Shown here in pieces: positions 17,475 through 41,957 of a stretch of 64,000 nucleotides of DNA. Both the position numbers and the translations under genes were made by a program. This stretch comes from Alphaproteobacteria bacterium. GTDB taxonomy: Bacteria; Pseudomonadota; Alphaproteobacteria; Caulobacterales; Aquidulcibacteraceae. The notes beneath the pieces are model-generated. The model made no database searches. It was not told where the DNA came from and worked only from the letters and a program-made list of their open reading frames with translations. Numbering within the stretch: the stretch's first letter is position 1; every line of letters begins with the position of its first letter. The DNA is taken from contig JAGWZE010000003.1 in NCBI GenBank assembly GCA_018969015.1, forward strand, positions 1 to 64,000. The letters are read 5' to 3'.

Positions 17475-18076
17475 TCCGCGTCGTCCTCGCGGAGGATCAG
17501 CTTCTCGTGCTCGGCGCGCTCGCGGCGCTCCTTGCGCTCGAGGACGACATCGAGGTCGTCGGCCAGGCGCGGGACGGCGCCGCCGCGCTCGACCTCGTGC
17601 ACACGCTCGCGCCGGATATTCTATTGACCGACGTCGAGATGCCGGGCTTGAGCGGGCTCGACGTGTGCGAGGCCATCGCCGCCGAGAAGCGCGCGACGCG
17701 CGTGGTCATCGTGACGACCTTTGCGCGCCCGGGCTATCTCCGGCGCGCGATGGAGGCGCGGGCGGCGGGATACCTTTTGAAGGACGCACCGCCCGACGTG
17801 CTCGCCGCCGCCGTGCGCACCGTCGCCGCGGGCGGGCGGGCGATTGCGCCCGAGCTTGCGGAAGCGGCGTGGGACGCCGCGCCCGATCCCCTCACCGACC
17901 GCGAACGCATGGTGCTGCGCCTTGCCGACGAAGGGCGCTCCAACAAGGAGATCGCCCAGCGGCTTGGCCTCTCGCCGGGCACGGTGCGCAACTATCTCGC
18001 CGACGCCTCCGCCAAGCTCGGCGCGTCGGGCCGGATCGAGGCGGCGCGCATCGCGCGGCGCAACGGCTGGATGTGA
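17471..18076 (+). CDS. NarL/DesR-type response regulator
   Basis: This 201-residue regulator has a receiver domain with acidic residues Glu8/Asp9, phosphoacceptor Asp54 (LLTDVEMP) and a conserved Lys in YLLKDAP. The C-terminal LuxR-type HTH (DPLTDRERMVLRLADEG ... NKEIAQRLGLSPGTVRNYL) binds DNA. The start is a GTG that overlaps the kinase stop codon. The kinase and regulator form a complete two-component system. Its targets are unknown; the divergent membrane protein at 15647-16249 is the nearest candidate. Confidence 0.92.
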   Translation: MIRVVLAEDQLLVLGALAALLALEDDIEVVGQARDGAAALDLVHTLAPDILLTDVEMPGLSGLDVCEAIAAEKRATRVVIVTTFARPGYLRRAMEARAAGYLLKDAPPDVLAAAVRTVAAGGRAIAPELAEAAWDAAPDPLTDRERMVLRLADEGRSNKEIAQRLGLSPGTVRNYLADASAKLGASGRIEAARIARRNGWM

Positions 18077-29025: not shown

Positions 29026-29898
29026 TCAGCCGGCGCGGGCAGCGGCGCGGCGCTTCACGAGGCCTTCGAGTTCGACAAGGACCTGGGCTTCGGCGTGTTC
29101 GTTGCGCGCTGTGGCGTCGAGGAACAGCGTGATGGCGTTCAGGTGCGCGGTCGCGACGTCGCCCGCGAAGGAGTCGGTCGCGCCGACGGCGTGCACGTAG
29201 GAGACGAGCGAGGCCGCCGCGTTGCGCATCGATGTGTCGCCCGCGCGTTCGGCGGTGCGCTGGATGTCTTCGGCGATCGAGGCAAGCGCGCGCAGCGCCG
29301 TGCGATTGCCCGGGCCGCCCTTGGCCGCTGCGAGCATCGCGCGCGTCGTCATGTCTTTCAATCGGACACGATCGGCCTGCGCGAGCCCTCCTTGTGTTTC
29401 GTCATCCACCAGCCGCCGGGAGGGGCCATCGACCCCGGCCGCCTTCGGACGACGGCGCCGGCACGGGCCCGTGTACTCCACCGCCGCGACGAACGGGCGC
29501 CGGCGCTGGACGATGGCCTCGAGCCGCGCCTGTACGGCCCCAAGCGAAAAGGGCTTGCCGACGAACTCGTCGACGCCGGCCTGCTGGGCCGACATGACGG
29601 CCTCGGCGGTCGCGTGGCCCGTCATCAGCAGGATCGGCACGGCCGGATCGAACGGCGTCTGGCCCTTGCGAATCTGGCGGGTGAACGCGATGCCGTCGAG
29701 GTCCGGCAGGATCCAGTCGCACAACAAGAGGTCGGGCTTGAAGCCGGCCGCCAGCCCGACGGCTGCGGCCGCGGTCTCTGCGGTCTCGACCCGGTTGAGG
29801 CCGAGCGTGCGCAGCGTCTCGATCGCCATGCGCCGGTGGAAGGCGCTGTCGTCGATCACAAGGACGCGCAAGCCGGTTATCGAGACACGGACCGTCAT
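29026..29898 (-). CDS. CheY-like receiver protein with Arg-rich motif and C-terminal helical domain
   Basis: This 290-residue protein has a receiver domain with Asp16/Asp17, phosphoacceptor Asp61 (LLCDWILPD), Thr93 and Lys115. It is followed by RRRPFVAAVEYTGPCRRRR (residues 132-150) and an alanine-rich helical domain with no HTH. The same architecture occurs at 39318. Arginine-rich tails after a CheY-like domain bind cyclic di-GMP in Caulobacter Cle proteins, which tune the flagellar motor. This match is by motif only. It is divergent from an M20 peptidase gene; a CGCGTTAACGCG palindrome lies at 29956-29967. Confidence 0.85.
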   Translation of the reverse strand: MTVRVSITGLRVLVIDDSAFHRRMAIETLRTLGLNRVETAETAAAAVGLAAGFKPDLLLCDWILPDLDGIAFTRQIRKGQTPFDPAVPILLMTGHATAEAVMSAQQAGVDEFVGKPFSLGAVQARLEAIVQRRRPFVAAVEYTGPCRRRRPKAAGVDGPSRRLVDDETQGGLAQADRVRLKDMTTRAMLAAAKGGPGNRTALRALASIAEDIQRTAERAGDTSMRNAAASLVSYVHAVGATDSFAGDVATAHLNAITLFLDATARNEHAEAQVLVELEGLVKRRAAARAG

Positions 29899-29955
29899 AC
29901 GACCAGTCAGTACTGTGGTTCGCTTAAGGCCCGGTGAACACGGCCACCGACCGGG

Positions 29956-29967
29956 CGCGTTAACGCG
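29956..29967. promoter_or_regulatory. Palindrome CGCGTTAACGCG in a divergent promoter region
   Basis: A perfect 12-bp palindrome centred on GTTAAC sits 58 bp upstream of the CheY-like gene and 136 bp upstream of the M20 peptidase. TTAAC is a half-site for the alphaproteobacterial cell-cycle regulator CtrA. One site alone is weak evidence. Confidence 0.4.
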
Positions 29968-30102
29968 TTCATGCGTGAATTCGAGATGATTTTCGTCGCG
30001 CCGGAAGGCGATCCGCGGAGATCGGACCGACTTGAGCCTTCGCCCGTGGTGCGCCACGGTGCGGACATGCGCCGCGCTGGCGCGCGCCCTCCGGAGCCTC
30101 CG

Positions 30103-31557
30103 ATGCGTTCTAACGCCCCCCTCGCCGCCTTGGCCGCCGTCGCACTCGCGCTCCTGGCGGGCCCCGCAGCCGCCAAGCCCGCCGCCGCGCCGCCGGACGG
30201 CACGAGCGCGCTCCCGGCGGCCTGGCAGACGCAGGCGCGCGGCTTCCTGAAAGAGGCGATCGAGATCCCGACCGTCGCCCACCGCGGCCAGGTGCCAGCT
30301 TTCGCCGAAAAGATCGCGGTGCGGCTGCGCGCGGCGGGGTTCCCGGCCGATGCCATCGATATCCGCCCGTACGAGGGCCTTCCCGGCGACAAGACCGCGG
30401 CGCTGATCTTCCGCTGGAAGGCCGAAAAGCCGGCGAAGAAGCCGATGCTGATCCTCGGCCACATGGACGTCGTCGAGGCCAAGCGCGAGGACTGGCGCGA
30501 CGACCCCTTCGTGTTCGCCGAGAAGGACGGCTATTTCTATGGCCGCGGCGCTTCCGACATGAAGAACGGCATCGTGGCGACCGTGACGGCGCTCGCCAAG
30601 CTCAAGGCGGCCGGCTTCAAGCCGCGGCGCGATATCGTGCTGTTCCTGACGGGCGACGAAGAGACGATGCAGAACGGCGCCCTGCTCGGGACGACGACGT
30701 GGCGCAAGGATCTCGACGCCGAGTTCGCGCTCAACGCCGACGGCTGGGGCGGCGGCTTCGACGCCAAGGGACGCCCGCTTGGCTTCTCCCTCAGCGCCGC
30801 GGAAAAGACCTATCAGAGCTATTTTCTGACCGTGCGCAATCGCGGCGGCCATTCGAGCCGTCCGCGTCCGGACAATGCGATCTATGAGCTCGCCACCGCC
30901 TTGAAGAAGCTCGAGGCCCACCGCTTCGCGCCGCAGCTCAATCCCACGACTCGCGCCTATTTCCAGGCCCGCCAGGCGCAGGAGAAAGGCGCCCTCGGCG
31001 ACGCCATGCGCCGTTGGCTGGCCGATCCCAATGACGGCGCCGCCGCCGACGCCATCGAGGCTGACGAGGTCGAGGCGGGCCGCACGCGCACGCGCTGCGT
31101 GGCGACGATGCTCGCCGCCGGCCACGCCGACAACGCGCTGCCGCAGATGGCGCGCGCCACGGTGAACTGCCGCATCATGCCCGGCGTGGAGCCCGTCACC
31201 GTACAGGCCGAACTGCAGGCGCTCCTGGGCGCGGGCGTCGAGATCACGCCGGACCCGGCCTTCATCGGCCGCCCCACGCCCGTTCTGCCGATCCGGGAGG
31301 ACGTGCTCGCCGCCTACACGCAGGCCGTGCGCGCAATCCACGGCCCATCGATGCCGATCATCCCGACGATGGACACGGGAACCACCGACGCGAGCTTCTT
31401 CCGCGCCATCGGCGTCCCCGCCTACGGCGTCGACGGCGGCTGGGGCGTCGTGCCGGACGACGAACGCGCCCACGGCCTCGACGAGCGCATCCCCGTGCGC
31501 GCGCTCTACGACGACGTGCTGCACTGGGAGATCATGGTGCGCGCGCTGGCGAAGTAG
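30103..31557 (+). CDS. M20/M28 family metallopeptidase, secreted
   Basis: This 484-residue exported protein has a signal peptide (1 to about 22, GPAAAKP) and the M20 co-catalytic zinc layout: LGHMDVV (first His and bridging-Asp region), GRGASDMKNG (metal Asp), GDEE (general base Glu and metal Glu), and a C-terminal His. A dimerisation domain (RNRGGHSSRP) is inserted. It is a carboxypeptidase or aminoacylase of the ArgE/DapE/CPG2 family in the periplasm. ATG 30103 has GGAG upstream; longer in-frame starts lack a signal peptide. Confidence 0.9.
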   Translation: MRSNAPLAALAAVALALLAGPAAAKPAAAPPDGTSALPAAWQTQARGFLKEAIEIPTVAHRGQVPAFAEKIAVRLRAAGFPADAIDIRPYEGLPGDKTAALIFRWKAEKPAKKPMLILGHMDVVEAKREDWRDDPFVFAEKDGYFYGRGASDMKNGIVATVTALAKLKAAGFKPRRDIVLFLTGDEETMQNGALLGTTTWRKDLDAEFALNADGWGGGFDAKGRPLGFSLSAAEKTYQSYFLTVRNRGGHSSRPRPDNAIYELATALKKLEAHRFAPQLNPTTRAYFQARQAQEKGALGDAMRRWLADPNDGAAADAIEADEVEAGRTRTRCVATMLAAGHADNALPQMARATVNCRIMPGVEPVTVQAELQALLGAGVEITPDPAFIGRPTPVLPIREDVLAAYTQAVRAIHGPSMPIIPTMDTGTTDASFFRAIGVPAYGVDGGWGVVPDDERAHGLDERIPVRALYDDVLHWEIMVRALAK

Positions 31558-31597
31558 GACGCCGCCGGCGGGGCAACCTTGCCAGCATCACGCCGCC

Positions 31598-31692
31598 GTC
31601 ATCCTCGACGCGCCGGAGGCGCGGCGGAGATCCAGACGTCAGCGCCGCCGCTCTGGATCCCCGCCTCGCACAGGGTGCGAGGCGGGGATGAC
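31598..31692. repeat. Nested inverted repeat between convergent genes
   Basis: Three inverted-repeat pairs share this 95-bp gap. The outer pair is GTCATCC (31598-31604) with GGATGAC (31686-31692). A middle pair is GATCCAGA (31629-31636) with TCTGGATC (31652-31659). A perfect 15-bp hairpin, 31657-31671 with 31675-31689, has loop AGG. It looks like an alphaproteobacterial intergenic repeat element and would also terminate transcription from both sides. Confidence 0.72.
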
Positions 31693-31715
31693 GGAGACGG
31701 TGGTGGCAAGATCCG

Positions 31716-33224
31716 TCACGCCGCCTGCGCGAGTCGCACCACGTCCGCCTGCGCGTCGACGCCGATCGCGGCGAGCATCTCTTCGCGGTCGGGGCCGGGC
31801 TTGGGCGGGTAGGCCTTCGCGTTGGCGCGTTTGCCGCGCGCCCATACCAGCAGCACCTTGGCGAGATTGTTCGGGCGGCCGAGCCACTTCTCGGGATCCT
31901 CGAGCATGTGGAAGCCGCGCATCGCCTCGCGGAGCAGATTGACGTCGCTGCGCACGGCGATGCGCACGCCGTCTTCGACGAAGCTTTCCATCAGCTTGCT
32001 GCGGAGCGTCCGTTTGGCGCCGGGCGTGAGGGCGAAGCGGGCGCGCTTGATCGCGGAACGATCCTGCCGGCGCTGGCTGAGATAGAACGGGCGCAGCTCG
32101 GCGTAGAGCTTCTCCTGGAACGCCACGAGGCGCGCCGTCGGATCGGCGGAGGCGTCGAGCGCCTGGCGCAGCGCCTGCGCGCTCACCGCGGCGAACGAGC
32201 AGCCGCGCCCATAAAGCGGGTTGGTGCGCACGAGCGTGTCGCCGAGCGCGAAATAGCCGCGCGCGGCGGGCTTTCCTTCGACGACGAGATCACGCCAGCG
32301 GCTGACGAGATCGCCCATGCCGTACACGCGACCGACGCCTTCGGACCGGCCCTCGTTCGTCCAGGGCTCGAGGCCCGGCAGCAGCAGCGTGATGCGGTGG
32401 AAGACGTCCGGATCGAGGATCGCCTTGCGCAGCTCCATCTCGACTTCGGGGATCGCGATGGTGATCGAGAAGCAGCCGTTGTCGCCCGGGAACACGCCGA
32501 ACTTCAGGAAGCCGAGATCGCCGGTGCCGGGCGGCGCGCCGGCGCGCGGCGGCTCCGACATGCCGGGCCGCAGGCGGTAGTGGCGCGTGAAATAGAGGAT
32601 GCCGGCGGGCTCCGCCTCTTCGGCGATCGTGGCGCCCTCCTCGCGCAGCTGCTCGAGCGTGAAGCCGGACTTGCCGGAGCTGTCGACGACGATGTCGGCC
32701 GAGAGCGTCACGGGCGCGCCGGCGCGTTCGCCCTCGATCCCCGTGACTTCGATGACGCCGTCTGCACCCTTCTGCGTGACGAGGCGGCGCACCAGCAGGC
32801 CCGTCTCGATGGTGACGTTCGGCAGCGACTGGACGTAGCGGCGCATGGCGAGTTCGAGCGTCGTGCGCCGGCTCGTGATGATGGTGAGATCTGCGTCTTC
32901 CGGCGCAGGGGTGTAGCGCGGGCGCTGGAGATCGGTGAGCATCGCGTCGAAGGGCAGCTCCCGCACGCCGAGCGCGAGCAACTCGTTCAGCAAACGCGGA
33001 TGCTCGGATTTGATGATCGTGCGCAACCGCGCGAGGAACGCGTGGCTCTGGCGCAGATGGCTCACGCCGGTGTGGCGCCAGTCCTGGAACACGGCGTCGG
33101 GATCGTCGCTCGCGGGCGCCTCGTCGCGGTCGACGAGCGTGACGGCGCGGCCCGTGGGCGCGAGCGCGAGCGCCGTGCACAGCCCGCCGATACCGGCGCC
33201 GATGACGAGAACGCGTTCGCTCAT
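31716..33224 (-). CDS. FAD-dependent oxidoreductase (halogenase / geranylgeranyl reductase-like)
   Basis: This 502-residue flavoprotein has the FAD motif GAGIGG at about 9-14, an RxTLE segment (RRTTLELAMRRY) and a late ALGDTLVRTNPLYGRGCSFA, which is the GD motif of PHBH-fold monooxygenases and related reductases. It lacks the WxWxIP motif of tryptophan halogenases. It probably oxidises or reduces a hydrophobic molecule. The start ATG overlaps the stop of the upstream hydrolase (ATGA), so it is the third gene of a tight operon starting at 35871. Confidence 0.85.
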   Translation of the reverse strand: MSERVLVIGAGIGGLCTALALAPTGRAVTLVDRDEAPASDDPDAVFQDWRHTGVSHLRQSHAFLARLRTIIKSEHPRLLNELLALGVRELPFDAMLTDLQRPRYTPAPEDADLTIITSRRTTLELAMRRYVQSLPNVTIETGLLVRRLVTQKGADGVIEVTGIEGERAGAPVTLSADIVVDSSGKSGFTLEQLREEGATIAEEAEPAGILYFTRHYRLRPGMSEPPRAGAPPGTGDLGFLKFGVFPGDNGCFSITIAIPEVEMELRKAILDPDVFHRITLLLPGLEPWTNEGRSEGVGRVYGMGDLVSRWRDLVVEGKPAARGYFALGDTLVRTNPLYGRGCSFAAVSAQALRQALDASADPTARLVAFQEKLYAELRPFYLSQRRQDRSAIKRARFALTPGAKRTLRSKLMESFVEDGVRIAVRSDVNLLREAMRGFHMLEDPEKWLGRPNNLAKVLLVWARGKRANAKAYPPKPGPDREEMLAAIGVDAQADVVRLAQAA

Positions 33225-34189
33225 CCGTCGATCTCCTTCAGGAACGCGAGGATCGCCTCGTTGACCGCCTCGGGCGCCTCCTGCTGGGTCCAGTGGCCCA
33301 CCCCCGGGATCATCTTCGTGAAGCGCAGATCCTTCACGAAATGCGGCATCGCCTGCAGCGCGGCGGCGGCCATCATGATGACGCCGTCGCGATCACCGGC
33401 GACGAAGAAAGCGGGCTGTTCGATCGTCGTCGGTGCGCCTTCCGTGAGTTTCCACGTCAGGTCGTGGTTGCGGTAATAGTTCAGCGGCCCGCGCATGCCC
33501 GACGCGCCGAACTCCGCGGCGTAGAAATCGAGATCGGCTTCGCTCAGCCAGGCCGGGAGCTTCTCCGGGTTTGGCAGGCTGGAGAGCAGATCATCGCCCT
33601 CCTTCTTCGGCGGCAGCGCAGCGAGATCGGTTTCGCCGCCGGCCATCACCAGAAATTTTTTCAGGCTCGTGCGGATGTCGGCCTCGAACTCGGCTTCCGC
33701 CACGCCGGGCTCGAAGAAATAGAGCTGGTAGAAGAACTGACCGGCGAACATCGCGCGCATCAGCGCCATCGGCGGCGACGGCGCGCGCGGCATGAACGGA
33801 ACCGAAAGCGCGCCGACCGCGCGCACGTTCTTGGGATGGTGCAGCGCCGTGGCCCAGGCGGTGGGCGCGCCCCAGTCGTGCCCGATCACGACGGCGGTCT
33901 CGTAGCCGAGCGCGCCGACGAGGCCGATCACGTCGTTGACGACCTCGACTTGATTGTAGGCCTCGATCGCGGCCGGTTTGTCGCTCTTGCCGTAGCCGCG
34001 CATGTCGGGCGCGACGACGTGGTAGCCGGCGGCCGCGAGCGGCGCGAACTGATGGCGCCACGAGTACCAGGACTCGGGGAAGCCGTGCAGCAACAGCACG
34101 AGCCGCTTCTGCCCCGCGCCGGCCTCGGCGATGTTCAGCTCGACGCCGTTGGTGCGGACGCGCCGCTGCGTGACGCCTGGCCAGCTCAT
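33221..34189 (-). CDS. Alpha/beta hydrolase, epoxide-hydrolase-like
   Basis: This 322-residue enzyme has the epoxide-hydrolase layout: HGFPESWYSWR (oxyanion region), DMRGYGKSDKP, nucleophile elbow GHDWGAP with Asp rather than Ser, lid-domain tyrosines, and a C-terminal His in VGHWTQQEAP. An Asp nucleophile with HGFPE fits epoxide hydrolases and haloalkane dehalogenases. It overlaps both neighbours by 4 bp (ATGA), showing a coupled three-gene operon. A paralogue of the same type lies at 43135. Confidence 0.9.
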   Translation of the reverse strand: MSWPGVTQRRVRTNGVELNIAEAGAGQKRLVLLLHGFPESWYSWRHQFAPLAAAGYHVVAPDMRGYGKSDKPAAIEAYNQVEVVNDVIGLVGALGYETAVVIGHDWGAPTAWATALHHPKNVRAVGALSVPFMPRAPSPPMALMRAMFAGQFFYQLYFFEPGVAEAEFEADIRTSLKKFLVMAGGETDLAALPPKKEGDDLLSSLPNPEKLPAWLSEADLDFYAAEFGASGMRGPLNYYRNHDLTWKLTEGAPTTIEQPAFFVAGDRDGVIMMAAAALQAMPHFVKDLRFTKMIPGVGHWTQQEAPEAVNEAILAFLKEIDG

Positions 34190-35871
34190 GCCGCGACCTT
34201 CTCCGCAGTGGGCCCCGGCAGGATCGCGCCCTGCGCGTCGAGATAGCCGTCTTTCGCCGTCCACGCGACCGCGCCGCCGACGATGACGGTGTCGACGCCC
34301 TGGGAGTCGCGCACGTAACGCCAGCCGCCGCCCGGCACGTCGCCCACGAAGTTCTCGGGGCCGCGGCCGATCGTGGCGGCGTCGAACACGACGATGTCGG
34401 CCGCGAAGCCGGCGCGCAGGTGGCCCCGATCGGAGAGGCCCCAGATCGCCGCGGTGTCGGCGGTGAGCTTCTTCACGGCCGCTTCCAGGCTCAGCATCTT
34501 CCGCTCACGGACGAAGTTGCTGAAGAGGTAGCCCGTGTCGCCATAGGTCGAGAAGGACAGGATGTGCGCGCCGCCGTCGCTCGCGCCGATATGCACCCGC
34601 GGATGGGCGAGCAGCGCGCCAACTTCGGCGTCGTCATTGTGGCCCATGTCGGCGGAGAGGAAGTGCGCGTCGAGGTCTTCTTCGAGCGAGATGTCGATCA
34701 TCGCTTCGATCGGCGTCACGCCGCGGTCGCGCGCGATCTCCTTGAGCGTCTTGCCGATCGCCTGGACGTTCGCTTCGGTCTTGGCGTGGCGCAGCACGAG
34801 GCGTGGCCACAGCGCGTCGAAGGGAGCGGCTTCCGCGATGAGTTTCGCGCGGCGCTCCGGATCGCGGAACGCGGCGGCGACCTCCTCCGGCGCGCTGAAG
34901 CGCATGAGGCGATACCAGCTCGGGAAGCGGATGAAGAGGAGGCTCGGCACCGCGAAGCAGAAGCTGAGATCGATGGGGCGCGTCTGCACCTGCGGCCACA
35001 CGCGCGCGCCGCGGGCGAACTGCTCGTCGACGCGCGCCATCACGCGGCGCACCGCCGCGATGCTGTCGGCGCCGACGAACAGCGGCGAAAAGGTCGTCGG
35101 GATGTCGTGCTGCAGCGAGAGCTCGGCGAGCTGATCGAGGCGGGCGATCGTGAGGTCCGGGTCGTAGAACTCGGGCACGATCTGCAGCACGCGGCCGTAT
35201 TCGCCGAGGACCGCAGCGAGCGCGTCGACTTCGCGCGCGTCGGCATAGCGGCTCGGCACCGGCTGCAGGCGCTCGTCCATGTCGACATAGCTGGTGGAAA
35301 GCCCCACCGCTCCGGCCTCGAGGCATTCGCGCAGAACGCCCTGCATCGCTTCGATCTCGGCGTCGGTGGCGGTGCGCTCCATTGCGGCGTCCCCCATCAC
35401 CCACAGGCGCAGCACGCTGTGGCCGACGAGCGGCGCCACGTTGATCGCGAGGCCCTTGCGGATGCGCGCAATGTATTCCGAGAACGTCTCCCAATCCCAC
35501 ACCACACCGTCGCGGAACGCCTTCAGCGGCATCTCCTCGATCTGGTTGAACATGCCGACGAGCTTCATGCGGTGCTCGGCGCGCAGCGGCGCGAGCGACA
35601 AGGAGCAGTTGCCGGGCACGATGGTCGTCACGCCGTGCGCGAGCGCAGGCTTGGCGTAGCCGTCCCACAGGAGCTGAGCGTCGAAATGCGTGTGCGGATC
35701 GATGAAGCCGGGCGAAACGACCTTGCCGCCCGCGTCGATCTCGCGCGACGCGGCGCCAACCACACGGCCAACCTTGGCGATGCGCCCGTCCTTCACGGCG
35801 ACGTCGCCGCGATACGCGGGCAGGCCGGAGCCGTCCACGATCATGCCGTTTCTGATCACGAGGTCGTACAT
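34186..35871 (-). CDS. N-acyl-D-amino-acid deacylase-like amidohydrolase
   Basis: This 561-residue cytoplasmic amidohydrolase of the D-aminoacylase branch has a metal-binding start PGFIDPHTHFDAQ, a Cys in GVTTIVPGNCSLS, His/Glu positions along the barrel (VLRHAKTE, GHNDDAE) and the terminal Asp in IGASDGGAH. It probably hydrolyses an N-acyl or cyclic amide. It is the first gene of the operon with the hydrolase and FAD oxidoreductase, which suggests a degradation route for an acylated or cyclic compound (inference). ATG 35871. Confidence 0.88.
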   Translation of the reverse strand: MYDLVIRNGMIVDGSGLPAYRGDVAVKDGRIAKVGRVVGAASREIDAGGKVVSPGFIDPHTHFDAQLLWDGYAKPALAHGVTTIVPGNCSLSLAPLRAEHRMKLVGMFNQIEEMPLKAFRDGVVWDWETFSEYIARIRKGLAINVAPLVGHSVLRLWVMGDAAMERTATDAEIEAMQGVLRECLEAGAVGLSTSYVDMDERLQPVPSRYADAREVDALAAVLGEYGRVLQIVPEFYDPDLTIARLDQLAELSLQHDIPTTFSPLFVGADSIAAVRRVMARVDEQFARGARVWPQVQTRPIDLSFCFAVPSLLFIRFPSWYRLMRFSAPEEVAAAFRDPERRAKLIAEAAPFDALWPRLVLRHAKTEANVQAIGKTLKEIARDRGVTPIEAMIDISLEEDLDAHFLSADMGHNDDAEVGALLAHPRVHIGASDGGAHILSFSTYGDTGYLFSNFVRERKMLSLEAAVKKLTADTAAIWGLSDRGHLRAGFAADIVVFDAATIGRGPENFVGDVPGGGWRYVRDSQGVDTVIVGGAVAWTAKDGYLDAQGAILPGPTAEKVAA

Positions 35872-35900
35872 GCGTGGTCCTCCGGAAATTCGTTTCTGTC

Positions 35901-36149
35901 TTATGCGGGCGGCGCCGTCATGAAGCGCTGCGCGGCGGCGGCGAGCGCATCGCGCACGTGTTCCCAGCCCTGGCCGATGAGCGCCGCGGGATCCTGCGCG
36001 CGGCAGGATTCCATCAGGACGCTCGCGGCGGCGTGGTCGAGCGCCACCACCGACTGCCCGCCATTCTCGAACCGCAGCGTAACGACGAGTTCGGCCTCGC
36101 CGTCATGGGCCGCGCCGAGGCGGACGTCGCTGATGACGGCGGAGCTCAT
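35901..36149 (-). CDS. Small protein of unknown function
   Basis: This 82-residue protein starts MSSAVISDVRLGAAHDG and is mostly beta then helix (about residues 55-75 amphipathic). It has no signal peptide or transmembrane segment. I do not recognise the family. It ends 30 bp before the amidohydrolase start and follows a second unknown small gene by 8 bp, so all five genes may be co-transcribed. A role with the operon enzymes is inferred only from position. Confidence 0.55.
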   Translation of the reverse strand: MSSAVISDVRLGAAHDGEAELVVTLRFENGGQSVVALDHAAASVLMESCRAQDPAALIGQGWEHVRDALAAAAQRFMTAPPA

Positions 36150-36157
36150 CGAGGGGC

Positions 36158-36412
36158 CTATGCGGGCTGTGCGAGCGGCGGCTCGACGAAGATCACGTCG
36201 CTCGGAAGGATCGGCGTCGCCACCCCGCTGATCCGCGCGGTCGCCCGCATGAAGACGTGCAGGTTCCAGCTCTGGAGCTTCGAGACGGCCTCGCTCTCGG
36301 CGAGCTCCGGCAATTCACGGCGGGCGATCTCGGCCCAGCCGTCGCCGGGCTGCGGCAGGATCGAACGGCGCACGCGGGACAAGGGCGCAGCGGCCATCGG
36401 CGTCTCCTTCAA
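36158..36412 (-). CDS. Small protein of unknown function
   Basis: This is an 84-residue protein (or 79 if started at the internal ATG 36397). It contains an Arg/Pro-rich N-terminus and GDGWAEIARRELPEL, then ends SDVIFVEPP. The GDGW...A start and hydrophobic final strand recall a LysM-like fold, but I am not confident. It is the first gene of a minus-strand run and has a potential regulatory inverted repeat upstream (36473-36506). Confidence 0.5.
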   Translation of the reverse strand: MKETPMAAAPLSRVRRSILPQPGDGWAEIARRELPELAESEAVSKLQSWNLHVFMRATARISGVATPILPSDVIFVEPPLAQPA

Positions 36413-36472
36413 GGCTGCGAAGTAAGCCGTGTTCGCCGCCCGGCGACAATCGTGACGTGACGGCGCCGCCGA

Positions 36473-36506
36473 TCACGCCCCTGCGACGACGCCCGTCCGG
36501 GCGTGA
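36473..36506. promoter_or_regulatory. Inverted repeat TCACGCCC/GGGCGTGA in a divergent gap
   Basis: TCACGCCC (36473-36480) and its exact reverse complement GGGCGTGA (36499-36506) are separated by 18 bp. They lie between the minus-strand operon starting at 36412 and the nitroreductase gene starting at 36588. This is a plausible two-half-site operator, or just GC-rich chance. Confidence 0.35.
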
Positions 36507-36587
36507 CCATGGGAGAACGCAAGGGCGGCAATGGCCACGCTTCGACCGCCCCTCGACGCCGCTCCCGCGGCGCGGCATGACTTCGCC

Positions 36588-37184
36588 ATGACCGAGACGC
36601 CCCGCGCCCCCGCCCACCCGATCGATCCGCTGTTCACGCGCCGGTGGTCGCCCCGCGCGCTGGATGGCGCCCCGATCGCCGAGGCGGAGCTCCTGACATT
36701 GCTCGAGGCGGCGCGGTGGGCGCCCTCCGCCTACAACGCCCAGCCCTGGCGCTTCCTCTACGCCCGCCGCGACACGCCAGCCTGGGGGCCCATGTTTTCC
36801 GCGCTCGTGCCGTTCAACCAGACCTGGGCCCAGAACGCGGCGGCGCTGGTGGTGGTGCTGTCGCGCACGATATCCGGCCCCGCTGGCCCCGACGCGCAGA
36901 CGAACCGCTGGCACGCGTTCGACGCCGGCGCCGCCTGGGCGAGCCTCGCGTTCCAGGCCGAACTCTCCGGCCTCGCGGCACACGCCATGGCCGGCTTCGA
37001 CGCCGAGGCGCTGCGCGCCGCGCTCGCCGTGCCCGCGACCTACGATCTGCACGCCGTCGTCGCCATCGGCCGCCGCGGCGACCCCGCCCAATTGCCCGAT
37101 CCCCTGCGCGCCCGCGAAGCGCCGAACGGCCGCAATCCGCTCTCCGCCATCGCCGCCGAGGGCGCATTCCGCTTCGAGGAGTAG
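36588..37184 (+). CDS. Nitroreductase family protein
   Basis: This 198-residue FMN flavoprotein has FTRRWSPRALDG at the start (FMN phosphate-binding arginines), ARWAPSAYNAQPWRFLYA and a terminal loop with conserved basic residues. It reduces nitro groups, quinones or enones with NAD(P)H. ATG 36588 gives the usual length; an upstream ATG at 36531 would add 19 residues. The acetyltransferase gene starts 2 bp after its stop. Confidence 0.9.
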   Translation: MTETPRAPAHPIDPLFTRRWSPRALDGAPIAEAELLTLLEAARWAPSAYNAQPWRFLYARRDTPAWGPMFSALVPFNQTWAQNAAALVVVLSRTISGPAGPDAQTNRWHAFDAGAAWASLAFQAELSGLAAHAMAGFDAEALRAALAVPATYDLHAVVAIGRRGDPAQLPDPLRAREAPNGRNPLSAIAAEGAFRFEE

Positions 37185-37186
37185 GC

Positions 37187-37705
37187 GTGGCCGAAACCAT
37201 CCGCCGCGCGACGCTCGCCGACGTGCCGGCGCTCCTGCGCCTGGAGCGCGGACCGGGCTATGAGCGGCATGTCGGCCGGTCCGACGCGACGCAGCATGCG
37301 GCCTGGATCGCGGCGCCCGATTGCGCCGTGTGGATCGCCGAAACCTCCGAAACCCTCGCCTTCGCCCTGCTCACCGGCATCGGCGACGTGCATTCCGGCG
37401 TCTATCTCAAGCGGATCGCCGCCCATGCGCCGGGCACGGGCGTTGGATCGCGGCTCCTGGCGCACGTGCTGCGCTGGACGTTCGAGGAGGCCGGCGCGCC
37501 GCGCTTCAGCCTCGACGTGCTCATCGAGAATACGCGCGCCCGCAGCGTCTACGCGCGCGCGGGCCTGCGCGAAGAAGGCGTAATGCGCGGGTCCTACGCC
37601 TTGCCGGACGGCGCCCGAACGGACCGCGTTCTCATGGCGGTGCTGGCGGAAGAATGGCGCGCCCGCACGCCCACCGCCGGATCCGAGAGCAGCACGAACC
37701 GGTAG
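37187..37705 (+). CDS. GNAT family N-acetyltransferase
   Basis: This 172-residue acetyltransferase begins with GTG just after the nitroreductase stop. It has the GNAT core: RRATLADVPALLRLE, YLKRIAAHAPGTGVGSRLL (acetyl-CoA pyrophosphate loop), and NTRARSVYARAGLREEG. It resembles amino-acid or ribosomal-protein acetyltransferases, with substrate unknown. The last 112 bp overlap the 3' end of the convergent deacetylase gene, which is uncommon; both frames there appear intact. Confidence 0.85.
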   Translation: MAETIRRATLADVPALLRLERGPGYERHVGRSDATQHAAWIAAPDCAVWIAETSETLAFALLTGIGDVHSGVYLKRIAAHAPGTGVGSRLLAHVLRWTFEEAGAPRFSLDVLIENTRARSVYARAGLREEGVMRGSYALPDGARTDRVLMAVLAEEWRARTPTAGSESSTNR

Positions 37706-38364
37706 CCCTGCGCCGTCAGGCCATCGAGCACCTGCGGCAGCGCGTCGGCGGTGTGCACGCCGCGCCCATTGATGTGGAAGATCAGCACGTCGCCGGGGCG
37801 CGTGCGGGTCAGCGTCTGGCGCACCAGCGCCCGCGCCGACACGTGCGGGTCGGGATCGCCCTCCGGCCAGCGCCAGTGCACCACGCGGTAGCCGAGCCCT
37901 TCGACGACGCCGACCGTGCGCGCGTCGGCATTGCCGCCGGGAAAGCGGAACAGCGTCGTGCGCCGCCCGGTGACCGTGAATATCTCAATCTCGGCTTTCA
38001 CCACCTCGGCTGTGACGCCGGCGTCGTCGAGCGTGCGCATGTCGCGGGGGTGCGACCAGGAATGGTTCTCGATCTCGACACGGGGATCGCGCGCGAGCGC
38101 GGCCACTTCGGCGGCGTTGTCGCGCGCAAACCGGCCGCCCATGAACACCGTGTACGGAACCCCGCGCGCCGCCAGCAGATCGACGATGCGGCGGTCGAGC
38201 GTCGCGGGCGCCCGCGCCTCGCAGGCGTCGAACGTGAGCGCGACGACGCGCTCGGCGGTGGGCAGGCGGGTGACGATCTCGGCGCGCGCCGGCGTCGCGT
38301 CCCAGACGGCGCCCGCGAACGCGGCGGCGACAAGCGCTCCCCTCCATCCGTACGAACGGCGCAT
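37594..38364 (-). CDS. Secreted polysaccharide deacetylase (NodB-like)
   Basis: This 256-residue exported protein has a signal peptide ending TPARAE and the NodB motifs ALTFDAC (44-48), NHSWSH (His101, His105) and a later RFPGG. The canonical TFDD is TFDA here. The catalytic Asp46 is kept, but the metal-ligand Asp is an Ala, so the metal site may be altered or use another residue. It would remove acetyl groups from a periplasmic glycan. GAGGTG precedes ATG 38364. The frame continues past the domain and overlaps the acetyltransferase gene. Confidence 0.82.
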   Translation of the reverse strand: MRRSYGWRGALVAAAFAGAVWDATPARAEIVTRLPTAERVVALTFDACEARAPATLDRRIVDLLAARGVPYTVFMGGRFARDNAAEVAALARDPRVEIENHSWSHPRDMRTLDDAGVTAEVVKAEIEIFTVTGRRTTLFRFPGGNADARTVGVVEGLGYRVVHWRWPEGDPDPHVSARALVRQTLTRTRPGDVLIFHINGRGVHTADALPQVLDGLTAQGYRFVLLSDPAVGVRARHSSASTAMRTRSVRAPSGKA

Positions 38365-38646
38365 CACACCCACCTCGTCGCCTGCCGGCCGGGATCGCCC
38401 GCCGGTCGTGCACGCCCTACCGGCTTACGCCCGCCGTCGCCGCGGACGCAACGAGACCCGGCAGGCCCGAACGCCGCAGGCCGGCTGTGGCCGGAGAGCG
38501 ATGATCTCCGGTCGCGCACGCCGCCGCGACGCCCACGAACGCCCGCGCCAGCAACGCGCCCATTTTGGGAGATAACCACGTTCACCTGAGGCCGCTTTCG
38601 ATTGTGTGGGGAAAACCAACCTGCGATTTTCCCCCAAGAGGTTGAG

Positions 38647-38889
38647 ATGTCAGCGCCTATTTTGCTTCAAATGACGTGCACCGAACTTGGTCTTTACAGG
38701 CTTGATCTTTTCGGTCGCCCACCGGAAAGCCAGGATCATCACGTGAGCACCGAGTTGGCCATGGCGGAAGCCCTGTGCGCGGCCGTGAACGCCGGCGTCG
38801 CGGACGAAGCCGTCTTCCAGGCCCTCAACGCGCTGATCGACGTGGTCGACGCCCCGGTCGAGCCCCGCGCGGCCCGCGCCTCGGGTTGA
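38647..38889 (+). CDS. Small protein of unknown function
   Basis: This 80-residue, mostly helical protein starts MSAPILLQMTCTELGL and has no membrane segment. GAGGTTGAG directly precedes ATG 38647; in-frame ATG 38602 is less well placed. The 282-bp gap upstream is rich in AT-poor sequence and shows no other gene. It is about 100 bp upstream of tRNA-His. I do not recognise it. Confidence 0.5.
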   Translation: MSAPILLQMTCTELGLYRLDLFGRPPESQDHHVSTELAMAEALCAAVNAGVADEAVFQALNALIDVVDAPVEPRAARASG

Positions 38890-38993
38890 CGGGCCCTGGA
38901 TTGGGGTGCCTCGGGCGCGCCCGCCCCTATTGCCCCCCGCACGGGTTCGCCGTATAGGCGCAGGCTTCGTGACCGGCCCTCACCGGCCGACGC

Positions 38994-39070
38994 GCCGCCT
39001 TAGCTCAGTTGGTTAGAGCGCCGGATTGTGGATCCGGAGGTCCCTGGTTCGAACCCTGGAGGCGGTACCA
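38994..39070 (+). tRNA. tRNA-His (anticodon GTG)
   Basis: The cloverleaf has acceptor GCCGCCT (38994-39000) with AGGCGGT (39060-39066), discriminator A73 and encoded CCA (39068-39070). The anticodon stem CCGGA/TCCGG encloses TTGTGGA, giving GTG at 39028-39030. Most bacterial tRNA-His have an extra G-1 and C73. Alphaproteobacteria commonly lack G-1 and carry A73, and this copy matches them. It also has a G1-U72 wobble and a U-U mismatch in the T stem (position 51-63). Confidence 0.95.
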
Positions 39071-39111
39071 TCTCGCGCGCGGGAATCCCGGCGTCGCGGG
39101 ACGCGCCTTCA

Positions 39112-39182
39112 CCGCAAAACCGGGCAGCCAAAACCGGGCACGCCAGAACAGGGCACGCCAGAACAGGGCACACCATAACCGG
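39112..39182. repeat. Tandem 15-bp repeat downstream of tRNA-His
   Basis: There are about 4.5 copies of a 15-bp unit. GCCAAAACCGGGCAC is at 39127-39141 and GCCAGAACAGGGCAC at 39142-39156, with an exact second copy at 39157-39171. Partial copies lie on both sides. The unit is not a multiple of an obvious stem and no ORF spans it. It lies 40-110 bp after the tRNA and before the CheY-like gene promoter. Slippage is the simplest explanation. Confidence 0.85.
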
Positions 39183-39242
39183 ATCAGGCCTCATGGCTCC
39201 ATGGCGACGACCGCGCGCAGAGCGCCGCCACGCCATGACGCG

Positions 39243-39257
39243 TTAAGCCGGATTTAC
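39243..39257. promoter_or_regulatory. Candidate CtrA box
   Basis: TTAA-N7-TTAC sits 61 bp before the CheY-like gene at 39318 and is close to the CtrA consensus TTAA-N7-TTAA. The first TTAA is also the start of an 8-bp inverted repeat TTAAGCCG/CGGCTTAA (39243-39250/39262-39269). CtrA controls motility and chemotaxis genes in related bacteria. This is motif evidence only. Confidence 0.45.
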
Positions 39258-39317
39258 CGCGCGGCTTAAGCGCTTTCCAACATTCCCAGGTTAGCTGTAC
39301 CCCTCTGTCGAGCGGCG

Positions 39318-40181
39318 ATGGCGGACTTTCTCGATCAGTTGCGGCGGTTGAGCCTCGTCGTCGTCGACGACAACGCCACGCATCGGCTGATCGCGGCCGA
39401 GGCGCTGCGCGGGTTGGGCGCCGGGCGCGTCCACCATGCCGAAAACGCCGCCGCCCTGTTCGATGTCGCCCGGGCCGCACCGATCGATCTTCTGCTGTGC
39501 GACTGGCAGATGCGTGACGTCGACGGCATCACCCTCACCCGCCAGATCCGCGCCGGCGAGACGCCGCTGCCGCGCGACATCCCCGTCGTGATGGTCACCT
39601 CGCAATCGACGGCCGGCGCGGTCGCGCGCGCGGTGCAGGCCGGCGCCGACGAGTTCGTCGCCAAGCCCTACGCCGTCGCCACGCTCGCCGCGCGGTTCGA
39701 GGCGGTAGTGATGAACCGCCGCCCCTTCATCCGCGCCGCCGCCTATGTCGGCCCGTGCCGGCGCCGCCGCGAGAGCCTCGAGCCGACGCTGCGTCGCCGG
39801 CTGTTCGACGACGCGCCTCAGGCGCCCGCCACGGCGCCGTGGGCGCAGGCGCTCGAAGCCACGCTCGTCGAAGTCCGCAGCCTTGCGCGCACCGCCGTGG
39901 CGCGCGACCGCGCCACGATCCGGCGTTTGCACACCCTGATCCACGGCGCCGGCGCCGATGCGCGGGCGCACGCCGACCCCGCCACACGCGCCGCGCTCGA
40001 GGGACTGCGGCACTATATCGACGGTGTCGGCGCAAGCGCCGCATTCGAAGGGAAAGTGATCGAGACGCACGCCGCCGGCGTCATCGAGATGCTGCGGCAC
40101 GCAGACGCCGCCACACGCGCGCGCATGGCCGAAGCCCTGGGCCACATGGTGCGAAAACGCCTTGTGCGTGCGGCCAGCTGA
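39318..40181 (+). CDS. CheY-like receiver protein with Arg-rich motif and C-terminal helical domain
   Basis: This 287-residue paralogue of the protein at 29026 has Asp17/Asp18, phosphoacceptor Asp62 (LLCDWQMRD), Thr94 and Lys116. It is followed by RRPFIRAAAYVGPCRRRR (134-151) and an alanine-rich helical C-terminus. The motif PF-x(4-6)-Y-x-GPCRRRR is placed identically in both. Cyclic di-GMP binding by the arginine patch, as in Caulobacter Cle proteins, is a testable inference. It lies 90 bp upstream of a chemoreceptor gene on the same strand, which supports a chemotaxis or motility role. Confidence 0.85.
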   Translation: MADFLDQLRRLSLVVVDDNATHRLIAAEALRGLGAGRVHHAENAAALFDVARAAPIDLLLCDWQMRDVDGITLTRQIRAGETPLPRDIPVVMVTSQSTAGAVARAVQAGADEFVAKPYAVATLAARFEAVVMNRRPFIRAAAYVGPCRRRRESLEPTLRRRLFDDAPQAPATAPWAQALEATLVEVRSLARTAVARDRATIRRLHTLIHGAGADARAHADPATRAALEGLRHYIDGVGASAAFEGKVIETHAAGVIEMLRHADAATRARMAEALGHMVRKRLVRAAS

Positions 40182-40271: not shown

Positions 40272-41957
40272 ATGGTCGGAAAACGTGTCTCCATCAATAC
40301 CCGCGTGCTGCAAGCGGCGGGTCTCGTCGCGACGGGCGCCGCGCTCGCCGGCGGCGCTGGTCTTTGGGCGACGTTTCATCTCGACGCCGCACTCGCCCAG
40401 GACGAGCGCAGCGCGGCGATCCTGCGCAACCACATGCAGGCCGACATGATGCATGACGCCCTGCGCGGCGACGTGTTGACGAGCCTCCTCGCGGCCGAAG
40501 GCGCCGGCGGGTTCTCGGTCAAGGACGCGCGCGACGACCTTTCCGAGCACGCGACGACCTTTCGCGCCATGATCGACGAGAACGCACGGCTCGTGGACAC
40601 GCCCGAGGTGAGCCGGCTTCTCGAACAGATCCGGCCCGCCTTGCAGGCCTATCTCGACGCCGCCGAGCGCCAGGTCGCGCTCGCCGGCTCCGATCCCGCG
40701 GAAGCGCGCGCGCAGATGCCGGCGTTCCTGAAGGCGTTCGCGGCGCTCGAGACCGAGATGGGCGCGGCGTCGGATGCGATCCAAAAACAGGCGCAGGACC
40801 GGGCGCTCGCCGCCCAGGCCGACGCCGGGCTCGCCAAGATCCTCATGGGAATCGCGATCCTTTTGTCAGGGGCGGCGATCGCGGCGACGATCATTGGCGC
40901 GCGTCGCCTTCTCGTCACACCGCTCGGCGAAATGACGGCGGCGATGCGCCGTCTCGCCGCCGGCGACACCGCCTCCCCGATCCCGACGGCCGCGCACGAC
41001 GACGAGATTGGCGACATGGGCGCCGCGCTTGCGGAGTTCCGCGCCAACGCGATCGCTCGTCAGGAGCTCGAAGCCGCGCAGGACGAGGCGCGCCGCGCCG
41101 AGCTCGCACGTGCACAGCGGCTGGCGAGCCTCTCGCAGACGTTCTCCGCTGCGCTCGGCGATGCGCTCGACGGGCTTGGCCAATCCACCCGCGCGCTCGA
41201 CGGCGAAGCCTCCGCCCTCATCCAGGCGGTCGATGGCGCGGCGGCGCAGGCGCAGGACGCCAATCGCGCGGCGGCGGACGTCTCCGACACCGTCACGGGC
41301 ATTTCCTCGGCGACGACGGAACTCAGCGCCTCGATCGACGAGATCGCCGGCCGCATGCGCCAATCGGCGCATGCGATCGAGACCGCCGTCGACACCGGCG
41401 CCACCGCCGACGGCGTGGTGCAGGAGCTCGCCGCGCTGACCGATCGCATCACGGGCATCGTGTCGGTGATCGGCGACGTCGCGGCGCAAACGAACCTGCT
41501 CGCGCTCAACGCCACGATCGAAGCGGCGCGCGCGGGCGAGGCCGGCCGCGGCTTCGCGGTCGTGGCGGGCGAAGTGAAGTCGCTCGCGAACCAGACCTCG
41601 AACGCCACCGAGGAGATCTCGGCCGAGATCGCACGTGTGCGCGAGGTGAGCCGCCAGGCCGTCGACAGCGTGCGCGCCGTGATCGCCGAGATCGGCCGGA
41701 TGCGCGACATCACCGCCGCGGTCGCCTCCGCCGCGGATCAGCAAAGCACGGCGACGACGGAGATTGCGGCCAACGTGCAACGCGCGGCGGTCGGCGCCGA
41801 TCGCGCCGCCGAAGGCGTTGGCGATCTCGAAAACGCCACCCAGGCCACCGGCGCCGTTGGCGCGCGTGTGCGCGAGGAGGTGGCGCGGCTTCAGGCGCAG
41901 CGCGACCGCCTCTCCGAAGCGGCCAACGTGTTTCTGGCGGGGCTGAAAGCGGCCTGA
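40272..41957 (+). CDS. Methyl-accepting chemotaxis protein
   Basis: This 561-residue receptor has TM1 at about 13-33, a helical periplasmic sensor at 34-189 and TM2 at 190-210. A HAMP domain follows at 211-262, then a long coiled-coil signalling domain. The conserved hairpin tip [20 protein letters not shown] is followed by [20 protein letters not shown], which contacts CheA and CheW. The C-terminus ends LKAA with no CheR-docking pentapeptide. The ligand is unknown. It sits directly after a CheY-like protein gene, and no cheA, cheW or cheB is in this window. Confidence 0.95.

Follow-up and report, generated by a model that had tools for sequence, protein, structure and literature searches.

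CheY-like proteins combining a Cle-type arginine-rich region with an HPt-like tail in an Aquidulcibacteraceae genome

This study concerns two genes in a stretch of 64,000 nucleotides from an alphaproteobacterium of the Aquidulcibacteraceae (GenBank assembly GCA_018969015.1, contig JAGWZE010000003.1, positions 1 to 64,000 of the forward strand), hereafter the window. Judged from their sequences, the products P0001 (29026..29898, reverse strand, 290 aa) and P0002 (39318..40181, forward strand, 287 aa) belong as paralogues to a large alphaproteobacterial family in which a CheY-like receiver is followed by a Cle-type arginine-rich region (ARR) and a third domain related to histidine phosphotransfer (HPt) proteins. 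The window pair are natural Cle-HPt fusions with a predicted pseudo-HPt tail, an arrangement that is common in the bacterial family of the window. The Cle character, which can be recognised from sequence, is known; the HPt-like tail, the recurrent pairing of Cle and HPt genes across Alphaproteobacteria and their fusion in one family are new.

Receiver domains and the arginine-rich region

An earlier note on this DNA had described two paralogous CheY-like open reading frames with an identical GPCRRRR motif, and the present analysis confirms this description. The coordinates are right, the proteins are 41% identical over 271 aa (BLASTP, E 5e-56), and each contains one PF00072 receiver domain (E 1.2e-21 in P0001 and 6.2e-22 in P0002), which spans approximately residues 10-131 of P0001 (29506..29871, reverse strand) and 10-132 of P0002 (39345..39713, forward strand). 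The residues expected for phosphorylation were correctly read as well, namely Asp61, Thr93 and Lys115 in P0001 and Asp62, Thr94 and Lys116 in P0002, and both receivers are followed by RRPF...Y-x-GPCRRRR, with GPCRRRR identical in the two proteins. The position of the helix-4 arginine is occupied by Gln105 in P0001 and by Val106 in P0002. Beyond PF00072, a Pfam scan gave no family above its cut-off for either protein, and the best 25 NCBIfam rows for each contained receiver-containing models only, all far under their cut-offs. P0001 and P0002 grouped together in the tree (support 90/81); this grouping is not relied on, since long branches were flagged.

Both proteins belong to the long form, comprising receiver, ARR and HPt-like tail. 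Residue counts were made over 137 rows (55 long and 82 short forms), all with GPxRR beyond residue 100, the others having been dropped. The acceptor aspartate, present in both window proteins, is found in 25 of the 55 long forms and in 78 of the 82 short ones.

The ARR of P0001 (29404..29505, reverse strand) reads RRPF..YTGPCRRRR..GVDGPSRRLVDD, and by spacing its R148 and R162 correspond to R156 and R169 of CleD. In P0002 (39714..39812, forward strand) the region reads RRPF..YVGPCRRRR..EPTLRRRLFDD, in which R149 and R161 are retained and the second GP is gone. A profile of 31 family segments (24 short and 7 long, with P0001 included and P0002 left out) matched the CleD peptide 6sft_A in the PDB with an E-value of 1.1e-13, and when the single ARR peptides of the window were searched against the PDB, CleD was the top match both times (E 0.013 for P0001 and 0.019 for P0002). 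These matches confirm the suggestion of the earlier note that the arginine-rich segment is of the Cle type. The 6sft entry is a complex with cyclic di-GMP (c-di-GMP).

The Cle background used throughout is taken from Nesper et al. (2017; PMC5677366). There, the ARR of the Caulobacter crescentus proteins CleA-CleE is defined as a tandem [YF]xGP[DE][RK]R with flanking Arg and Asp. CleD-GFP bound c-di-GMP with a Kd of 86 nM by isothermal titration calorimetry; in the CleD peptide, R156A abolished and R169A weakened the binding, and the helix-4 arginine of CleD (R113) was strictly required for localisation and function. The spacing of R113, R156 and R169 (43 and 13 residues) is matched by a short paralogue from the window's own genome (L006), the single one checked, and therefore the residues can be mapped. 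The equivalents of R156 and R169 are retained in all 55 long members, including the window pair. At position X of the first GPXRR, 69 of the 82 short forms have Asp and 54 of the 55 fused forms have Cys.

The window pair thus resembles the Caulobacter Cle proteins in having a CheY-like receiver followed by an ARR in which both central arginines are conserved. They differ in the Cys of the first half-motif, in the erosion of the second, which has lost its aromatic residue in P0001 and its GP in P0002, in the absence of the helix-4 arginine, and in carrying a tail of about 120 residues that is HPt-like. By the strict published criteria, P0001 and P0002 are Cle-like and not certified Cle proteins.

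The HPt-like tail and the pairing of Cle and HPt genes

The tail occupies 29029..29403 (reverse strand) in P0001 and 39813..40178 (forward strand) in P0002, where it has five predicted helices. The P0002 tail was modelled with AlphaFold2 from an input of nine sequences, none of which was a stand-alone HPt protein, and the model reached a pLDDT of 91.3 and a pTM of 0.84. The top five Foldseek rows for this model were all CheA P1 domains (query TM 0.60-0.68). In VIA the best match was CheA P1 1i5n_A (Z 14.9, 115 residues, 2.5 A), and the top six consisted of four named CheA P1 domains, one chain of a chemotaxis core signalling unit (8c5v_C) and one unrelated helical repeat protein. The structural likeness to HPt (PF01627) and CheA P1 (1i5n, 3kyi) lies in the predicted five-helix bundle and in the best structural matches. 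As the tail is a predicted helical bundle, the fold alone is insufficient, and sequence evidence was used independently.

The tail profile aligned with a profile of 13 stand-alone HPt-like proteins encoded beside Cle genes over 111 columns, with an hhalign probability of 96.6 and an E-value of 5.4e-10 in this single comparison; the two profiles also gave reciprocal matches and shared a column pattern. The best match to reversed open reading frames was 0.061 for the stand-alone profile and 0.0026 for the tail profile. P0001 and P0002 were not in the best 25 rows for the stand-alone profile and were reached through the family, in an iterated profile that already contained both. Most of the proteins that the tail profile found in the PDB were designed helical ones (best E 1.6e-4), and these matches were not taken as homology. 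These data indicate that the tail shares ancestry with the HPt protein that is predicted beside the Cle gene in other alphaproteobacteria. The earlier note had regarded the C-terminal domain as apparently new; given the profile alignment to HPt proteins and the predicted CheA P1-like fold, a new fold was rejected and the domain is regarded as HPt-like.

The fused tail is at the same time a putative pseudo-HPt, as its phospho-histidine has mostly been lost: at the corresponding column only 3 of the 49 fused tails have His, among them P0002 with His209, and P0001 has Glu. The Lys-Gly of HxxKG is absent from both window proteins. The tail is distinguished from HPt and CheA P1 by these losses and by its fusion to a receiver and ARR. 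Another histidine, which lies in TH..A (His251 of P0002 and its P0001 equivalent), is retained in 46 of the 49 fused tails. The starting lead to HPt was the HDxKGQ motif, a mark of such proteins, and this lead was afterwards tested; its single pattern match in the window's own genome was a false lead, as it lies within a protein read by eye as acetyl-CoA synthetase.

The gene partnership was found from two directions. Among the 80 loci fetched through Cle, 14 had a gene for an HPt-like protein downstream of the Cle gene, directly adjoining it except at L100, where a second receiver gene intervenes; 13 of these proteins make up the stand-alone profile. Nine of the stand-alone neighbours were scanned, and eight of them matched Pfam Hpt (PF01627) at E <= 2.1e-4, seven above the cut-off; the neighbour at L061 had no Pfam Hpt match. 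The stand-alone HPt protein at L035 matched one NCBIfam CheA model at E 7e-4, under the cut-off. Conversely, the tail profile by itself gave 36 matches beyond the own genome, and loci were fetched for the 19 best. All 19 come from other families; a gene for receiver plus ARR was adjacent in 17 of them (upstream and in the same orientation in 16, convergent in one), and none was found within the stretch fetched for the other two (L169 and L174). The tail shared an open frame with a receiver in none of these 19 loci. No description of the Cle-HPt pair was found in a literature search that covered titles and the openings of abstracts, with most subscription journals outside its coverage, and the string 'hpt' is absent from the main text of PMC5677366.

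Within the window's family, a match to the profile of receiver and ARR was found in 60 of 60 genomes searched, and a tail match in 56 of the 60, mostly in long open frames; in G013 the tail was matched solely in a frame of 163 residues. The window genome has the most tail copies, with five, and the other family genomes have three or fewer. Outside the family, at least 30 of 384 genomes of the class match the tail at E 1e-5, which is a lower bound, as the class-wide search scored 10 candidates per genome.

Proposed role and competing explanations

The best explanation overall, and one that we hold to be somewhat probable on the present analysis, is that P0001 and P0002 are CheY-like regulators tuned by c-di-GMP, with a tail that serves to dock a partner. 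In this mechanism, c-di-GMP would bind the ARR as in Caulobacter Cle proteins, and the bound ARR would become ordered against the alpha4-beta5-alpha5 face of the receiver, which could then bind a CheY target, with FliM as the first candidate. The HPt-like tail would have stopped relaying phosphate and retained the HPt surface, through which it may hold a receiver, either its own or that of a partner. Thus, c-di-GMP would control a tethered dock instead of phosphotransfer. According to a proposal in PMC5677366, Cle proteins have traded control by phosphorylation for control by c-di-GMP. What their C-terminal extensions do was left open there, with the suggestion that these could help to sequester partner proteins; the docking role of the tail fits this idea. 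An HPt gene beside Cle, fused to it in one family and with its histidine mostly gone, is a concrete candidate partner.

A wider proposal may be attached to this, which we offer tentatively as credible but short of probable. The Cle receiver and HPt would form a widespread two-part module of Alphaproteobacteria that joins c-di-GMP to the phosphorelay and chemotaxis network; in the window's family the parts would be fused, and the HPt would have become a dock for receivers that cannot itself be phosphorylated and is gated by c-di-GMP, in five copies in this genome. If true, second-messenger and phosphorelay inputs would converge on a single receiver.

Regarding FliM as a target, the own genome encodes a FliM with an EIDSLL peptide, resembling the CheY-binding motif, and it also encodes five GGDEF domains. 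Among 80 genomes of the class, including the own genome, FliM was found in 27 of 32 with an ARR match and in 19 of 48 without (odds ratio 8.2, p 6e-5). After removal of the own genome and of those less than 90% complete, the counts were 19 of 22 and 15 of 39 (p 3e-4); both tests ignore shared ancestry. In the window's family, FliM is present in 58 of the 60 genomes, the two without it being 57% and 65% complete; as FliM is nearly universal there, the association gives no contrast within the family. One genome of the class sample, G103 (97% complete), has nine ARR matches and zero FliM matches.

Several observations weigh against c-di-GMP-tuned regulators with an HPt-derived dock. The helix-4 arginine is missing from both window proteins, although 49 of the 55 long forms and 79 of the 82 short forms retain it, and both have Cys in the first half-motif where the published motif has Asp or Glu. 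The best Foldseek E-value for the tail model was 0.047, with none below 0.001, and helical bundles can reach a VIA Z of 13-14 by chance, as the tool itself warns. With the one-step tail profile, 4 of the 13 stand-alone proteins (L064, L071, L080 and L092) fell below the best reversed match. Among 25 of the 44 Pfam families listed for the 49 tails there was no Hpt and no consistent family. Further, no FliM match was found in 5 of the 32 ARR genomes (three in the more complete set), and therefore a motor role is not obligatory. With their phosphorylation residues intact but the helix-4 arginine and the second half-motif eroded, the window proteins are probably weaker or altered readers of c-di-GMP, and phosphate uptake may still be possible. 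As the pair has drifted at residues tied to c-di-GMP action, full c-di-GMP reading is not to be assumed.

A more conventional scheme would have c-di-GMP-loaded P0001 and P0002 adjust the flagellar motor by binding to FliM, as classical Cle proteins, with the tail as a passive extension. The ARR homology with CleD, the EIDSLL peptide of the own FliM and the association of ARR with FliM over the 80 genomes are in its favour. We nevertheless consider it somewhat unlikely, since both proteins lack the helix-4 arginine and have a degraded second half-motif, the presence of a tail match in 56 of the 60 genomes of the family speaks against a passive extension, and within this family the FliM association offers no contrast. 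That the family instead acts outside the motor, in adhesion, the cell cycle or general c-di-GMP buffering, seems unlikely to us: the overall ARR-FliM association and the Cle precedent speak against it, although the ARR genomes without a FliM match, including G103, and the vicinity of the window copies, which holds one chemoreceptor and no recognised flagellar or other che gene, are what such a role would lead one to expect.

The intact phosphorylation residues allow a further account, in which the pair has lost c-di-GMP control and the phosphorylated receiver works with an internal HPt-like partner, as an intramolecular phosphorelay or a phosphate sink. The acceptor aspartate, which both proteins keep although fewer than half of the long forms do, the missing helix-4 arginine, the His209 retained by P0002 at the HPt column and the chemoreceptor 90 bases downstream of P0002 are consistent with this account. 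Given that P0001 has Glu at the HPt column, that both proteins lack the Lys-Gly of HxxKG and that the central arginines are retained, we find it quite unlikely. The last explanation questions the tail itself, which could be an unrelated helix bundle for dimerisation or docking that is HPt-like by convergence only. The lack of Hpt among the Pfam families listed for the tails, the weak Foldseek E-values, the rank of the unrelated helical repeat protein as third by VIA Z and the reversed match that beats 4 of the 13 stand-alone proteins are all compatible with convergence; the profile-profile E-value of 5.4e-10, the reciprocal matches with their shared column pattern and the same gene partnership found from two directions make it very unlikely. 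Compared with CheY itself, the window proteins share the receiver domain and its phosphorylation residues and add the ARR and the HPt-like tail.

Paralogues in the genome and neighbouring genes

The two genes had been taken in the earlier note for a pair, which is not supported, because 12 or more ARR loci occur in the own genome, and five of its proteins carry the same tail. The loci were counted on the match to the ARR profile alone, and a thirteenth, more divergent one lies on contig 42 (L017). The five proteins with the HPt-like tail are the window pair, a tandem pair on contig 26 and one protein on contig 39; a contig 26 paralogue (C26:9343) is less eroded than the window pair.

The tandem long-form paralogues on contig 26 (L002, 7843-11688) lie at 534-1418 and 1483-2358 of that locus, immediately upstream of a gene identified by eye as encoding acetyl-CoA carboxylase alpha; the first of the two is without the conserved receiver lysine. 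Tandem pairs are also seen at three Ponticaulis loci (L022, L024 and L025) and one Hyphomonadaceae locus (L023). The long-form copy on contig 39 (L005) has an oxidoreductase-like neighbour, identified by eye, that recurs at Ponticaulis loci and elsewhere in the family (10 loci, its own included); the copy may therefore be ancestral. Two further proteins of the genome carry related motifs. A GPCRRRRR protein of 265 aa (L177, 417-1214, reverse strand; contig 55 near 86.4 kb), on the contig of the window but outside the window, was found via the ARR profile and is missing from the receiver-domain list. A REC-like GPCRRR protein on contig 48 (L010, 1273-2124, reverse strand) has a different long tail, which was not listed by the HPt-like profile.

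As the earlier note had observed, a chemoreceptor lies by one copy and a peptidase by the other. A methyl-accepting chemotaxis protein with HAMP and MCPsignal domains (40272..41957, forward strand) begins 90 bases beyond the end of P0002 in the same orientation, and an M20 peptidase (29971..31557, forward strand) is divergent from P0001. Neither adjacency was present at the other long-form loci fetched, with up to 5 kb on each side, and these neighbours were rejected as a functional clue, as they do not recur there. The window contains a further receiver domain at 17480-17818 (forward strand).

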